From Cyclobacteriaceae bacterium (GTDB lineage Bacteria; Bacteroidota; Bacteroidia; Cytophagales; Cyclobacteriaceae): 22,224 bases of DNA. Position numbers and translations under genes: made by a program. This document shows positions 1 to 14,985 of the stretch, in pieces (within the stretch, counting starts at the first letter, position 1; every line of letters begins with the position of its first letter). Below the pieces are notes generated by a model. The model was not told where the DNA came from, did no database searches, and worked only from the letters and a program-made list of their open reading frames with translations. The stretch is from assembly GCA_025455445.1 (NCBI GenBank), contig JALOMN010000006.1, positions 1 to 22,224 of the forward strand. Reading direction: 5' to 3'.

Positions 1-104
1 CCTTCCTCATATTTTTCAAAATCCGGAAGAGTCAAGGACATTTGGTGGATTTCAATCGTTAATTCCTTGGCTAGTTGCCAGACTTCTAATTTTTGATAAC
101 TCAT
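1..104 (-). CDS. Four-helix-bundle (S23/IVP family) protein, N-terminal part, cut by window edge
   Basis: Reading the minus strand from the ATG at 104-102 gives 34 complete residues beginning MSYQKLEVWQLAKELTIEI and continuing through LPDFEKYEEG to the window edge. The [LV]-E-V-W start followed by an A-K-E-L helix is the usual opening of the family first found encoded in intervening sequences of bacterial 23S rRNA (Pfam 23S_rRNA_IVP), which forms four-helix bundles and pentamers. Its molecular role is unknown. The LPxFExYEEG turn belongs to a different subgroup from the second copy at 7909-8313. It is divergent from rnhB. Directly upstream lies a degenerate heptamer array (115-142). Only the first quarter to third of the gene is visible, so integrity cannot be judged. 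The family call rests on recognised sequence pattern, not on a search. Confidence 0.75.
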   Translation of the reverse strand, partial: MSYQKLEVWQLAKELTIEIHQMSLTLPDFEKYEE

Positions 105-114
105 ATGTTTATTC

Positions 115-142
115 TGCTATCCAGAATCAAGAATCTGGAATC
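115..142. repeat. Degenerate tandem heptamer array upstream of the S23/IVP gene
   Basis: Four 7-nt units in register end at 121, 128, 135 and 142. On the plus strand three fit NNGAATC (CAGAATC, AAGAATC, TGGAATC), and the first is a looser TGCTATC. Read on the minus strand, the direction of the S23/IVP gene, the unit is GATTCNN. The array ends 10 nt before that gene's start codon. It also makes a partial palindrome (CCAGA ... TCTGG, 121-138). The same period and placement recur at the second S23/IVP gene, with a different unit sequence. Confidence 0.6.
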
Positions 143-6749: not shown

Positions 6750-7848
6750 ATGACCACAGAACAATTAAAGGATTTGAAAGTCCGTGTTGCCGCCCTCAGG
6801 CGGTATCTTTGACTACGATAACAAAATCGTAGAAATACAAGACGAAGAGCGTATTACCCATCAGGCAGATTTCTGGAACAAACCCAAAGAAGCGGAACTA
6901 ATACTAAAGGAAATTCGCACTAAAAAAGTGTGGACCGATGCTTTTGACCAGGTGAATAAGCAAGTGGAAGATCTTGAAGTACTTAATGAATTTCATGATG
7001 CAGGCGAGATAGGGGATGAAGAATTGGAAAGAGATTATCTAAAAACTGCAAAATCAGTTGAAGAACTCGAGTTTAAAAAGATGCTCAGCAAAGAGGAGGA
7101 TCAGCTCAGTGCGGTGATGGAAATAAATCCGGGAGCCGGAGGAACTGAGAGCAACGACTGGGCAGATATGCTCAACCGCATGTATATTATGTGGGGCGAG
7201 AAAAGTGGATACAAAGTTTCACAAATAGATTATCAGGCAGGTGAAGTGGCAGGTATAAAATCGGCTACGCTGGAGATTGAAGGGCCATTTGCGTACGGAA
7301 AGCTTAAGTCAGAAATTGGTGTTCATCGCCTGGTTCGTATTTCACCATTTGATTCCAATCAACGAAGACATACTTCTTTTGCTTCGGTATTTGTGTATCC
7401 GAAAGTAGATGATTCCATTCAGATTGAAGTCAATCCTGCTGATGTTGAAATTCAAACATCACGCTCAGGCGGTGCAGGCGGACAGAACGTAAACAAGGTG
7501 GAAACAAAAGTGCAATTAACACACAAGCCCTCCGGCATTGTGATAGTGTGCCAGGTAGAACGTTCACAACATGCCAACCGCGAGCGTGCCATGCAGATGT
7601 TGAAATCAAAATTGTATCAGGTTGAAATGGAAAAACGAAATGCAGCGCGTGATAAGGTGGAGGCTGGTAAAATGAAAATTGATTTTGGTTCGCAGATAAG
7701 AAACTACGTGTTACATCCTTACAAACTGGTGAAAGATGCTCGCACCGGGGTGGAAAGACATGATGCCCAAAATGTGCTCGATGGCGACCTGGATGATTTC
7801 ATCAAAGCATATTTGTTGGAAGATCAGGAATCGGCAACCAAGCAGTAA
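6750..7848 (+). CDS. prfB: Peptide chain release factor 2, with programmed +1 frameshift
   Basis: RF2 recognises UGA and UAA stops and triggers peptide release. Translation starts at ATG 6750, reads 20 codons ([20 protein letters not shown]), then meets an in-frame TGA at 6810-6812. Slipping +1 on CTT (skipping T6810) continues in the frame from 6811 to the stop at 7848, giving 365 aa, the same length as E. coli RF2. The site AGG CGG TAT CTT TGA C keeps the classic layout: an SD-like AGG, the slippery CTT and a TGA-C stop. Codon-recognition motif SPF is at residues 198-200 and the catalytic GGQ at 243-245, preceded by Ala. RF2 level thus sets its own synthesis. The stop codon overlaps the start of a heptamer array. 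Confidence 0.97.
6798..6813 (+). promoter_or_regulatory. prfB +1 programmed frameshift site
   Basis: AGGCGGTATCTTTGAC contains an internal SD-like AGG, then CTT-TGA-C. The ribosome pauses at the poorly terminated UGA and slips forward one base when RF2 is scarce. This is an in-frame stop by design, not a broken gene: both flanking frames are conserved RF2 sequence. Confidence 0.95.
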
Positions 7849-7888
7849 TCGGTGGTCGGTAATCAGTATTCAGTAATCGGTATTAGGA
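7847..7888 (+). repeat. Degenerate heptamer array, left flank of S23/IVP cassette
   Basis: Six 7-nt units in perfect register begin inside the prfB TAA. Units include AATCGGT, GGTCGGT, AATCAGT and ATTCAGT; the consensus is AWTCRGT, and the last unit (ATTAGGA) is decayed. The array ends 20 nt before the S23/IVP start codon at 7909. A 15-nt stretch (CGGTAATCAGTATTC, 7858-7872) recurs inverted in the right-hand array at 8321-8348. Confidence 0.75.
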
Positions 7889-7908
7889 ATGTTTAAATCC
7901 TAACTTAT

Positions 7909-8313
7909 ATGGAATACGTAGAAAGCTATACAAATCTGGAAGTTTATAATCTGGAAGTTTATAAAGCGGCAAGGCAACTGGCTAAGGAGATATTTTCCAT
8001 TACTAAGGATTTTCCACGCGATGAAATGTTTTCGCTCACAGATCAGATAAGAAGATCATCACGTTCAATAGGTGCACAAATCGCTGAGGCTTGGGCAAAA
8101 AGATTATATGAAAAGCATTTTGTAAGTAAGCTGACTGATGCCGATGGTGAACAGCAAGAAACCCAACATTGGATTGAAACAGCAAACGACTGCGGATACT
8201 TAACTACTGAATCTACCGCCAACCTTTTACAACAATGCAGTTCGATTGGTAGAATGTTAAACTCCATGATTAAAAAATCGGATTCCTTTTGTAAACCGCT
8301 AAACAAAAAATAA
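7909..8313 (+). CDS. Four-helix-bundle (S23/IVP family) protein
   Basis: The 134-aa protein shows the family pattern: NLEVYKAARQLAKEIF (helix 1), FPRDEMFSLTDQIRRSSRSIGAQIAEAW (turn and helix 2), RLYEKHFVSKLTDADGEQQETQHWIETA (helix 3), and CGYL followed by a last helix to residue 125. It belongs to the IAEAW / SKLTDADGE subgroup. Relatives are encoded in 23S rRNA intervening sequences and as free genes in Bacteroidota; their biochemical role is unknown. It is a single-gene cassette set between prfB and the MFS gene and enclosed by opposed heptamer arrays. Near the N-terminus the 15-nt unit aatctggaagtttat occurs twice in tandem, so LEVYN is duplicated. The ATG at 7909 is the only reasonable start. 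The C-terminal tail is Lys-rich. Confidence 0.88.
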   Translation: MEYVESYTNLEVYNLEVYKAARQLAKEIFSITKDFPRDEMFSLTDQIRRSSRSIGAQIAEAWAKRLYEKHFVSKLTDADGEQQETQHWIETANDCGYLTTESTANLLQQCSSIGRMLNSMIKKSDSFCKPLNKK

Positions 8314-8320
8314 CGCTCTA

Positions 8321-8348
8321 ACCGAATACTGATTACCGAATACCAATT
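8321..8348 (-). repeat. Degenerate heptamer array, right flank of S23/IVP cassette (inverted)
   Basis: Four 7-nt units (plus strand ACCGAAT, ACTGATT, ACCGAAT, ACCAATT; minus-strand consensus AWTCRGT) start 8 nt after the S23/IVP stop. The last base, T8348, is the first base of the TTG start codon of the MFS gene. Orientation is opposite to the array at 7847-7888, so the two could pair. Confidence 0.75.
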
Positions 8349-9514
8349 TGAATAAAACCTACACCTCATCTTTCTGGTTACTCTGCCTGAGTTCGCTTTT
8401 GTTTTTTGCGAGCTTCAATATGATCATTCCTGAACTGCCGGAATATCTTACACACTTAGGTGGCGCGGAATACAAAGGGTTAATCATTTCATTATTCACA
8501 ATTACGGCCATGCTCTCAAGGCCTTTCAGCGGCAAACTGGCCGATACTATCGGTCGTGTGCCGGTAATGATTTTTGGAGCAGTAGTATGTTTTATTTGCA
8601 GCTTATTATATCCGATAGTCGCTTCGTTATTTCCATTTTTCCTGTTGCGATTTGTGCACGGTTTTTCTACAGGCTTTACACCTACCGGCAACACGGCTTA
8701 TTTATCAGATATTGTTCCGGCACATAAACGAGGCGAAGCAATGGGTTTGCTTGGCACAGCAGGAGCAGTAGGCATGGCAGCCGGGCCTGCATTAGGTGGA
8801 ACACTCGCTAACCAGTTTGGGCTAAATACCATGTTTTATTGTTCTTCTTTATCTGCATTGATTTCTATTTTGATTTTGCTAAGGACAAAAGAAACATTGC
8901 ACTCCAGAGAAAAATTTTCTTTTTCACTTTTAAGAATTACTAAAGCGGACTTGTTCGAACCTCGAGTACTGGTGCCCGCATTTATTATGGTGCTTGCTTC
9001 GTTTGCGTATGGTTCGGTATTTACCATCATCCCTGACTTTGGGCAGTTTGTGGGTATAAAAAATAAAGGTTTGCTATTTACATTTCTTACAGTTGGTTCG
9101 CTTTTGATCCGTTTACTTGCAGGCAAGGCCTCCGATCGATATGGTAGAGCACCCGTGCTCATGGCAAGTACATCCTTAATTGTAATTTCGATGATAGTTA
9201 TTGGCACAGCAGAAACTACGCTTCAACTAATTGTTGGCGTTAGTTTATACGGACTCGCCCAGGGCTCCACGTCACCGACATTACTCGCATGGGCCACTGA
9301 TTTAAGCGATGATCGGTTTAAGGGAAGAGGTCTGGCATCACTTTATATATCGATGGAATTAGGCATTGGTTTAGGCGCTTTTATTTCAGGTTGGCTTTAT
9401 GGTAATGATTCAACGAAATTTTTATTGGTATTCCTGACCAGTGCACTGTTAAGCGCAATTGCTTTTTTGTACTTACTTTTATTCAACCGTCAGCAGCGTT
9501 TAATTTTAAAATAG
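8348..9514 (+). CDS. MFS family transporter
   Basis: The 388-aa protein has about twelve hydrophobic segments and the MFS loop 2-3 motif (RPFSGKLADTIGRVPVM, close to GxLaDrxGRkxxl). A degenerate copy between helices 8 and 9 reads RLLAGKASDRYGRAPVLM. The sequence LLGTAGAVGMAAGPALGG in helix 5 is typical of drug:H+ antiporter or sugar-efflux-like members. Substrate cannot be told. Translation most likely starts at the TTG at 8348: helix 1 begins about eight residues later, the next in-frame ATG (codon 25) would cut helix 1, and an in-frame TGA lies just upstream. The TTG sits on the edge of the heptamer array, which may have replaced the original start region. The lysoplasmalogenase gene follows after 35 nt. 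Confidence 0.88.
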   Translation: MNKTYTSSFWLLCLSSLLFFASFNMIIPELPEYLTHLGGAEYKGLIISLFTITAMLSRPFSGKLADTIGRVPVMIFGAVVCFICSLLYPIVASLFPFFLLRFVHGFSTGFTPTGNTAYLSDIVPAHKRGEAMGLLGTAGAVGMAAGPALGGTLANQFGLNTMFYCSSLSALISILILLRTKETLHSREKFSFSLLRITKADLFEPRVLVPAFIMVLASFAYGSVFTIIPDFGQFVGIKNKGLLFTFLTVGSLLIRLLAGKASDRYGRAPVLMASTSLIVISMIVIGTAETTLQLIVGVSLYGLAQGSTSPTLLAWATDLSDDRFKGRGLASLYISMELGIGLGAFISGWLYGNDSTKFLLVFLTSALLSAIAFLYLLLFNRQQRLILK

Positions 9515-14296: not shown

Positions 14297-14303
14297 CGAT
14301 ACA

Positions 14304-14333
14304 ATTTCAAATCTGAAATTTCGAATTTGAAAT
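14304..14333. repeat. Heptamer array / palindrome in the Tyr-Gly tRNA spacer
   Basis: Four units in 7-nt register (14305-14332): TTTCAAA, TCTGAAA, TTTCGAA and TTTGAAA. The ends form a perfect 9-bp inverted repeat (ATTTCAAAT at 14304-14312, ATTTGAAAT at 14325-14333), so the spacer could fold into a hairpin that may guide tRNA processing. The 11-mer GAATTTGAAAT also occurs in the next spacer. Confidence 0.6.
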
Positions 14334-14339
14334 AGGTAA

Positions 14340-14412
14340 GCGGGAGTAGCTCAGTTGGTAGAGCGATAGCCTTCCAAGCTATAGGTCGCGAGTTCGAGCC
14401 TCGTTTCCCGCT
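14340..14412 (+). tRNA. tRNA-Gly(TCC)
   Basis: Acceptor GCGGGAG/TTCCCGC with one G-T pair, anticodon stem ATAGC/GCTAT with loop CTTCCAA giving TCC, and a T-loop starting TTCGAG. 73 nt, discriminator T, no encoded CCA. Confidence 0.96.
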
Positions 14413-14418
14413 CACAAT

Positions 14419-14522
14419 GAATTTAAAATTCAAAATTCCAGGTTTAACTGGAATGTTGAATATGAGTTTAGCGTGTGGAGGATAACCAAATTTTGAATTT
14501 GGAATTTGAAATGTTGAATTAA
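14419..14522. repeat. Two heptamer arrays in the Gly-Thr tRNA spacer
   Basis: Block one (14419-14460) reads as six 7-nt units, among them GAATTTA, AAATTCA, AAATTCC and TGTTGAA. It contains the inverted repeat ATTCCAG-gtttaa-CTGGAAT. Block two (14488-14522) reads as five units, including GAATTTG twice in a row and AAATGTT, and contains the palindrome CCAAATT-ttg-AATTTGG. The units are AT-rich, so the 7-nt register is suggestive rather than proven. Confidence 0.5.
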
Positions 14523-14525
14523 TTG

Positions 14526-14597
<72 letters not shown>

Positions 14598-14985
14598 CAA
14601 TAGAAAGGAGCGTTTACGGACAAATCTTTCTGTTTGGATGTTGATGTAGAGCATGGCGCGAGGCGCGCCAAGGTCGAGAGTTCCCTGTCTGCCGAAGCAT
14701 TGTGAAGGCAGGAATTCTCTTCAACAGCTCTTGAGATAATATACAGTGATTATTCTGGTATCGATCGGAGTAATTTTAGGACTTTGAAATATTGATTTTG
14801 AATGAATTATCTGAATACGGATGGGTAGCGACCATATTGATTTAAGTATCAGATTTCATCGAATAACCCTTATTCGACAGGCTTAACATGTTTGGGGTGT
14901 ATAGTGCTTCTTAGTAAGAGAAGCTTTGATTAGTAACTTATTTAATTAATTATACACTTTTAAACTTTAACCGGGATTTTCAAAT
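14598..14985 (+). other. tRNA-Thr to tuf gap: tRNA relic plus structured tuf leader
   Basis: These 388 nt hold no convincing gene. Besides the tRNA-Thr relic, they contain a possible decayed heptamer stretch (14780-14807, units like GACTTTG, AAATATT, GATTTTG). They also hold a perfect inverted repeat TCGAATAA-CCC-TTATTCGA (14859-14877) and a weaker stem GCTTCT...AGAAGC (14906-14924). The last two lie within 130 nt of the tuf start and may shape the 5' leader. No exact TAnnTTTG promoter with a well-placed -33 box was found, so tuf may be read from the tRNA promoter. Confidence 0.6.
14637..14729 (+). pseudogene. Degenerate tRNA-Thr copy carrying two palindromic inserts
   Basis: Compared with tRNA-Thr at 14526: the 5' part is rearranged (GATGTTG, then ATGTAGAGCA, with the D-arm partly missing). 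The 17-nt anticodon arm is replaced by a 17-nt palindrome (14654-14670, TGGCGCG-AGG-CGCGCCA). The 13-mer AGGTCGAGAGTTC is identical. The T-loop is then split by 29 nt (14684-14712) carrying CTGCC...GGCAG, after which 18 nt (AATTCTCTTCAACAGCTC, 14713-14730) are again identical. It cannot fold as a working tRNA: there is no proper D-arm, no U33, and the T-loop is broken. Confidence 0.85.

Follow-up and report, generated by a model that had tools for sequence, protein, structure and literature searches.

Proteins of the S23/IVP family are widespread and structures of them have been solved, but to our knowledge their function is not known and we know of no catalytic activity. This work concerns an S23/IVP gene that lies between inverted arrays of seven-nucleotide repeats (heptamers) in a stretch of 22,224 nucleotides from a Cyclobacteriaceae bacterium (contig JALOMN010000006.1), referred to below as the window. 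The closest described system is the intervening sequence (IVS) in the 23S rRNA gene of Coxiella, which PMC4990558 gives as 428 nt long, with a 28-bp terminal stem, cut by RNase III in vitro, and with two or three heptamers upstream of S23, depending on the strain. The second relevant body of work is on dispersed heptamers, which according to PMC4692102 and PMC4679880 are 7-nt tandem arrays, mostly intergenic, with units such as GGGAATC in Xanthomonas, GGGGA(C/T)T in Nostoc and TAACTGA in Beggiatoaceae and Bacteroidetes, and with 70 convergent pairs in X. campestris. The excess of 7-nt tandem repeats in bacteria has been noted for years, with no cause established (PMC4692102). In the open-licence PMC literature, as far as its texts were accessible, nothing links S23 genes with heptamer arrays in general, the Coxiella IVS being a single case; 'four helix' is absent from the texts PMC4692102 and PMC4679880, and 'S23' from PMC4679880.

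The unit of the window occupies the junction between prfB and a gene of the major facilitator superfamily (MFS), and is composed as follows:

6784..7848, plus strand: prfB (release factor 2), an open reading frame matching TIGR00020 (E 6.7e-142); upstream neighbour
7846..7887, plus strand: left heptamer array of six units, consensus TAWTCRG, from the repeat reading of the window
7856..7871, plus strand: left half of a 16-nt exact inverted match
7909..8313, plus strand: S23/IVP four-helix-bundle gene, 134 aa (PF05635, TIGR02436, AlphaFold2 model, PDB fold matches)
8321..8348, minus strand: right heptamer array of four inverted units
8324..8339, minus strand: right half of the 16-nt exact inverted match
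8348..9514, plus strand: MFS transporter gene with a TTG start, an open reading frame with MFS-type NCBIfam matches; downstream neighbour

The 499 nt from prfB to the MFS gene hold most of the six heptamers, the S23/IVP gene and the four inverted heptamers. The left array reads TAATCGG TGGTCGG TAATCAG TATTCAG TAATCGG TATTAGG, its first three bases being the prfB stop TAA (7846-7848), and the right one ACCGAAT ACTGATT ACCGAAT ACCAATT, its last base being the first T of the MFS start. With a period-7 score of 12.5 the left array is the best of the window; in 100 Markov-resampled windows the best score had a mean of 7.8, a 95th percentile of 9.5 and a maximum of 12. The longest exact inverted match between the arrays is 16 nt, and a 15-nt exact inverted match at a distance of 100-600 nt occurred once in 50 Markov-resampled windows. 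The S23 assignment is firm in profile searches (PF05635, E 1.5e-33, 115.6 bits against a cut-off of 33.8; TIGR02436, E 9.1e-33, 112.7 bits against 24), and in the predicted RNA fold of the cassette the ends pair. The preliminary description of this DNA, made from its letters, had reported six units beginning in the prfB stop, four opposed units whose last base opens the MFS start codon, an S23/IVP gene between them and no transposase inside; all of this stands, and the inverted match it reported is present but one nucleotide longer than the 15 nt given there.

We consider the unit, with a probability of about 60%, to be a member of a widespread class in which an S23/IVP gene is bracketed by inverted degenerate arrays of 7-nt, sometimes 8-nt, repeats. 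The figure covers the explanation in full, including an inherited insertion at this junction and the ring-binding and RNase III model set out further below.

The junction in relatives was surveyed by searching the MFS protein in 58 genomes, which gave 30 loci, 21 of them holding both prfB and the MFS gene. The search for an empty site, which the preliminary description had proposed, was successful. The junction is full in three genomes (G000, which is the genome of the window, G009 and G013), contains a decayed S23 gene with heptamers in two (G008 and G032), is reduced to a 30-nt heptamer scar in G018, carries a 54-nt array of a different heptamer in G024, and is free of the cassette in fourteen, with prfB-MFS spacings of -1 to 95 nt. 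On a tree of prfB and MFS the occupied and scarred genomes fall in one clade together with the cassette-free G034 and G022 (support 0.82 for the nine-genome clade and 0.98 for the grouping of G034 and G022 with G000). A single gain followed by loss and two separate gains both fit this distribution. G013 and G024 are sisters on the same tree, are 97.2% identical over a 3-kb stretch on the prfB side and have near-identical displayed flanks on both sides of the junction; within the same boundaries G013 holds the S23 cassette and G024 the short array of another family. The unit has been inserted into, or lost from, otherwise conserved junctions. No target-site duplication was evident by eye at the junctions inspected, where the ancestral spacers are too short and diverged for one to be recognised with certainty.

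Three sets of S23 genes were used to study the flanks in general. The related-genome set comprises 136 genes, including that of the window, and is the higher-scoring part of the match list; the named-loci set comprises the best 80 of at least 583 confirmed candidates, found with one S23 subgroup, from many phyla and with one locus carrying an archaeal label; the plasmid set comprises 12 of 39 plasmid records, a thirteenth, H3, not being counted. Genes with a flank of less than 100 nt were excluded (3 of 136 related and 9 of 80 named), which left 133 and 71 for counting. Arrays were called at period 7 or 8 with a score threshold of 9 and compared to Markov-resampled flanks. Counts of orientation, array side and unit profiles include close relatives uncollapsed, while the dinucleotide core described below was computed on collapsed sets.

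The 7-nt periodicity that the preliminary description had asked to be compared with randomised controls is far above chance beside S23. At least one array was found at 85 of 133 related genes (34 on both sides, 51 on one; resampled 4 of 133), at 62 of 71 named loci (40 and 22; resampled 1 of 71) and at all 12 plasmid copies (10 and 2; resampled 1 of 12). In 150-nt flanks of the related set, period 7 reached score 9 in 55 of 135 upstream and 50 of 134 downstream flanks, and period 14, a multiple of seven, in 43 and 41; period 8 did so in 6 upstream and 10 downstream flanks, and none of the periods 4-6 and 9-13 in more than two. Coverage by period 7 is 20% up to 50 nt from S23 and 0.3-1.4% beyond 300 nt, while periods 5, 6 and 9-11 stay below 0.7% at every distance. 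Two named loci, L223 and L224, have 9-nt arrays, the left side of L224 being of period 7 and its right side of period 9.

The heptamer itself differs between S23 loci, also within one genome. The idea of a single shared heptamer in the preliminary description had therefore to be amended, and one fixed heptamer recognised everywhere was rejected: the sequence is locus-specific, the period and the inversion are conserved. The left flank matches the reverse complement of its own right flank with a mean score of 31.0, as compared to 16.55 (standard deviation, sd, 0.34) for permuted pairs in 133 related genes, and with 38.0 as compared to 16.25 (sd 0.62) in the 71 named genes. When S23 genes were clustered by shared neighbours, 15 groups held 85 of the 136 genes, the largest group spanning 16 genomes. 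Within these groups own pairs scored 29.3 and cross pairs 22.8, the own pair being higher in 64 of 85 (p 2.4e-8, the rows not being independent). Since own pairs exceed cross pairs at shared sites, the match must have been renewed after the sites diverged; the paired arrays co-evolve. In the ten sites shared by G013 and G024, array insertions and deletions are largely multiples of 7 nt.

After collapse of the S23 proteins at 60% identity the 7-nt arrays have a weak core: of 60 upstream units 77% contain AG, where 57% would be expected, and of 49 downstream units 73% contain CT, where 54% would be. Base composition is polar, with G exceeding C in 92 of 112 upstream arrays and C exceeding G in 87 of 102 downstream arrays. 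The aligned unit profiles, uncollapsed, contain AG upstream and hold 3.49 and 2.85 bits, as compared to 2.49 (sd 0.14) and 2.31 (sd 0.09) for column-shuffled units. A dependence of unit length on S23 subfamily was rejected, as the signal of the full tree, 14 changes compared to 21.0, was lost on collapse at 60% identity.

Arrays also occur without S23. A 1.2-Mb stretch of G024 with four S23 genes has 23 arrays of period 7 or 8 that score at least 12. Four of them lie within 150 nt of S23; three of the orphan loci consist of a solo hairpin made of inverted arrays. Thirteen of the nineteen orphans are, by eye, of the ATTCAAR type, the heptamer of that genome's S23 cassette L057. Two-unit ATTCAAR hits genome-wide number 77 in G024, 74 in G013, 55 in G025, 42 in G011, 29 in G010, 18 in G035, 16 in G029 and 0-9 in the other genomes of the genus. 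The eight carriers of an L057-type S23 gene have higher counts (p 8e-5, uncorrected for kinship and for the 13 groups tested); three other groups of the same test gave p 0.002-0.024, and G025, with its 55 hits, is not a carrier. A strict rule by which each abundant heptamer family would have its own S23 gene was discarded, as it fails for TAATTCA in G050.

Genes other than S23 are also bracketed by arrays in G024. At 917278-918285 (L373, L374) a gene pair, which from its sequence we take to be VapBC-like, is enclosed by AAAGCGG-type arrays whose hairpin loop is the same left and right; in G013 (L372) one such hairpin and different heptamers replace the pair. At 722236-723000 a single gene, presumably Sir2-like from its sequence, lies inside inverted heptamer arrays.

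These S23-free arrays bear on the alternative that survives best, though we regard it as unlikely: neutral slippage, mentioned as an explanation in PMC4692102, would expand 7-base repeats in tolerant intergenic spots, where S23 would merely be located without taking part. It agrees with array changes being largely by whole units and with the frequency of arrays away from S23, which is that of 19 of the 23 strong arrays in G024 and of 24 of 120 other gaps in the named loci; the latter figure indicates that S23-bearing neighbourhoods are heptamer-rich in general. Slippage does not account for the excess in the gaps beside S23 of the same named loci (92 of 122), it does not by itself yield a left-right inverted match specific to each locus, and the G-rich upstream and C-rich downstream polarity follows the orientation of S23. 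Per gap, G024 has arrays in 3 of 6 beside S23 and in 19 of 616 others; the related genomes offered 11 other gaps (2 with arrays), too few for use as a control. The preliminary description had named heptamers as frequent without S23 as beside it as an argument against its view. Arrays are indeed common without S23, but the rate per gap is far higher beside it.

The placement of S23 genes relative to their neighbours is not random. S23 and its two neighbours point the same way in 107 of 121 and 51 of 65 loci, in total 158 of 186, and S23 is antisense between two co-directional neighbours in 6 of the 121 and 1 of the 65. In G024, 635 of 874 pairs of adjacent genes share their direction, so that a randomly oriented S23 would be co-oriented with both neighbours in about one third of cases. 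On cyanobacterial plasmids S23 was found between cas6 and cas4 (twice, with different heptamers), between cas10 and cmr3 and, in antisense, between the ribonucleotide reductase genes nrdB and nrdA. Seven cas6-cas4 junctions were read, with S23 in two and none in five. The cas6|cas4 flanks of Anabaena sp. 90 and Dolichospermum UHCC 0315A are 98.7% (318 nt) and 99.7% (334 nt) identical, and despite this Anabaena has the S23 cassette and Dolichospermum an unrelated hairpin repeat (L375 1337-1583, beginning GTAGGTTGGGTTG). PMC3936711 had already noted 18 S23 genes within cas loci, frequently together with Cas4 or Cas6.

The ratio of nonsynonymous to synonymous substitution rates of S23 was 0.02-0.22 in ten of thirteen pairs, those with a defined ratio, synonymous change being saturated in the other three; the protein is therefore maintained by purifying selection. 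The preliminary description had left the choice between a small mobile and a domesticated cassette. Domesticated fits better than actively mobile: for 85 of the 136 S23 genes another genome has one at the same site, and selection on the tested pairs is purifying. Recent jumps of near-identical cassettes were looked for and rejected, as 11 of the 13 close S23 pairs listed (at least 78% nucleotide identity) had similar flanks; the other two had unrelated flanks, one of them within a single genome (L145/L149, 80.9%). Two S23 copies in Calothrix brevissima, considered as a case of movement, were likewise set aside, as they have neighbouring genes in common.

Purifying selection, neighbour pairs common to up to 16 genomes and co-orientation in 158 of 186 loci are what would be expected if S23 were a host regulator of the surrounding operon and the arrays attenuator-like or insulator-like RNA structures. 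We hold this to be improbable, since the neighbours are unrelated to one another (prfB/MFS, cas6/cas4, cas10/cmr3, nrdB/nrdA) and the unit is missing at the same junctions in relatives.

The AlphaFold2 monomer model of the window's S23 protein has a mean predicted local distance difference test score (pLDDT) of 92.2. Its closest PDB folds are 2gsc (template modelling score, TM, 0.90-0.93) and 2rld (BT_0352 of Bacteroides thetaiotaomicron; 0.81-0.87, both normalised by target), solved relatives with five chains each; weaker matches were to the accessory protein Avd of diversity-generating retroelements (DGR; 4dwl), including Avd in the DGR reverse-transcriptase ribonucleoprotein 8ub8. In the Avd equivalog test the protein stays below the cut-off (44.2 bits against 80). 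This likeness, together with the strong sense-strand bias of S23, gives some ground to a retroelement derivative, in which S23 would be an Avd-like accessory and the cassette would move via RNA with a reverse transcriptase acting in trans. Such an origin seems to us a poor prospect, no better than the operon regulator, given the score in the Avd test, a reverse transcriptase family match in just 13 of 39 genomes, and none found in G000 (78% complete) or in the array-rich G013 (92% complete). A resident reverse transcriptase as the driver is not supported by the same 13 of 39 genomes. No match to S23 was found in phages with one query (L035) among 50,697 records. Least probable of all is an ordinary miniature transposon whose terminal inverted repeats, the arrays, would serve a transposase encoded elsewhere in the genome: the inverted ends, the orphan hairpins and sites that occur with and without the unit suit it, but the ends vary between loci of one genome and drift at a fixed locus, which a sequence-specific transposase would not tolerate, and target-site duplications were not evident where looked for.

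In the reading we prefer, that of an inherited S23 unit with paired arrays, the unit would have entered the prfB-MFS junction in the ancestor of part of the genus, in sense orientation, and afterwards been inherited, decayed or lost. The arrays change in length by entire units, and left and right stay inverted copies of each other, so that the sequence of the repeat is free to drift under a constant period and symmetry. The S23 ring, which is pentameric in the solved relatives, may bind the arrays as single-stranded nucleic acid, probably the unit's own transcript, with roughly one repeat per subunit, in the manner of TRAP wrapping RNA around its ring. Such binding is suggested by the relationship to Avd, by the constancy of the period, by the AG core and by the analogy to TRAP, whose eleven subunits bind 11 (G/U)AG repeats in RNA (PMC4027176). 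The two arrays may then pair in the polycistronic RNA and the unit be cut out by RNase III, a step suggested by the in vitro RNase III cleavage, the 28-bp stem and the heptamers upstream of S23 in the Coxiella IVS. S23-free arrays would have arisen from such units by deletion, or be copies that the same process maintains.

Several observations weigh against this explanation. No array reaches the threshold at 48 of 133 related-genome S23 genes and at 9 of the 71 named loci, and 19 of the 23 strong arrays in the 1.2 Mb of G024 are not beside S23. The 8-nt arrays (nine per side) do not have AG or CT among their top enriched dinucleotides, and at a few loci (L177, L249, L252) the arrays are direct and not inverted. 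TAATTCA, with 71 hits in G050, matches none of its three S23 genes; in G054 it has 62 hits and a matching S23. On the collapsed tree unit length, 7 or 8, takes 13 changes against 14.3 (171 of 1000 shuffles), i.e. it does not follow the S23 subfamily, which weakens a strict fit of one repeat per subunit. Finally, the stability of the whole cassette RNA is ordinary (z -1.1; 15 of 100 shuffles as good).

Further features of the window touch the same subject:

3..104, minus strand: second S23 gene, cut by the window end (PF05635 below cut-off)
119..142, strand not assigned: heptamer run immediately upstream of that gene (period-7 score)

Just 34 residues of the second S23 gene lie inside the window; 30 of them align to PF05635 (E 1.3e-4, 22.6 bits against the 33.8-bit cut-off), and the family search of the genome does not list the gene. 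The score of the run at 119-142, 9.5, equals the 95th percentile of the whole-window Markov maxima. S23-free heptamer runs of the AATTTGR / ATTCAAR type are present at 14298-14525, in the spacers between tRNA-Tyr, tRNA-Gly and tRNA-Thr, and 3' of tRNA-Thr, at about 14599-14720, there is by eye an apparent broken second copy of that tRNA's sequence, again ending in tRNA 3' end letters. Inside the S23 gene at 7933-7964 an exact 15-nt tandem duplication repeats NLEVY in frame, which 11 aligned relatives do not have. For the MFS neighbour, all 25 MFS-type NCBIfam matches shown fall below the curated cut-offs.

The tie between S23 and heptamers gives a family with no assigned function a substrate that can be tested, and the association in many phyla makes the cause of the bacterial 7-nt repeat excess directly testable; the S23 cassette is a candidate cause of the many seven-letter repeats found in bacteria. 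More tentatively, and as a proposal that we find doubtful in this general form, S23/IVP proteins might be the agents behind the bacterial heptamer repeats: in a class of element spanning phyla, with ends defined by a 7-8 nt period and by left-right symmetry and not by sequence, a ring with one repeat per subunit would build, match and disperse arrays, enter operon junctions and leave orphans. Ends that keep their period and symmetry but not their sequence would, if so, make the unit unusual among mobile elements.

Compared to known systems, the cassette resembles several in part. The likeness to TRAP is proposed only as an analogy, the fold of TRAP being unrelated to that of S23. Avd, which forms a pentameric ring, appears from the model to share the fold of the window's S23 protein (4dwl, 8ub8); the differences are that this S23 stays below the NCBIfam cut-off for Avd and that no reverse transcriptase was found in G000, at 78% completeness. 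With REPIN-RAYT the cassette has in common a gene flanked by inverted repeats and, as far as the orphans match a resident S23 gene (ATTCAAR, but not TAATTCA in G050), dispersed hairpins of the same family. The palindrome on which the nuclease RAYT acts is fixed, whereas the S23 arrays vary in sequence and are fixed in period. The 23S rRNA IVS of Coxiella and Leptospira is, like the cassette, an S23 open reading frame between complementary ends. The cassette differs in its position between protein genes, the Rfam matches in the window being four tRNAs only and its place between prfB and MFS not inside a 23S rRNA gene; in having heptamer arrays on both sides; and in that purifying selection acts on the S23 genes tested, while decay is reported for the Coxiella reading frame. 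It works like an S23-coding IVS outside the location inside 23S rRNA that defines one, and is classed here as a variant of the IVS.

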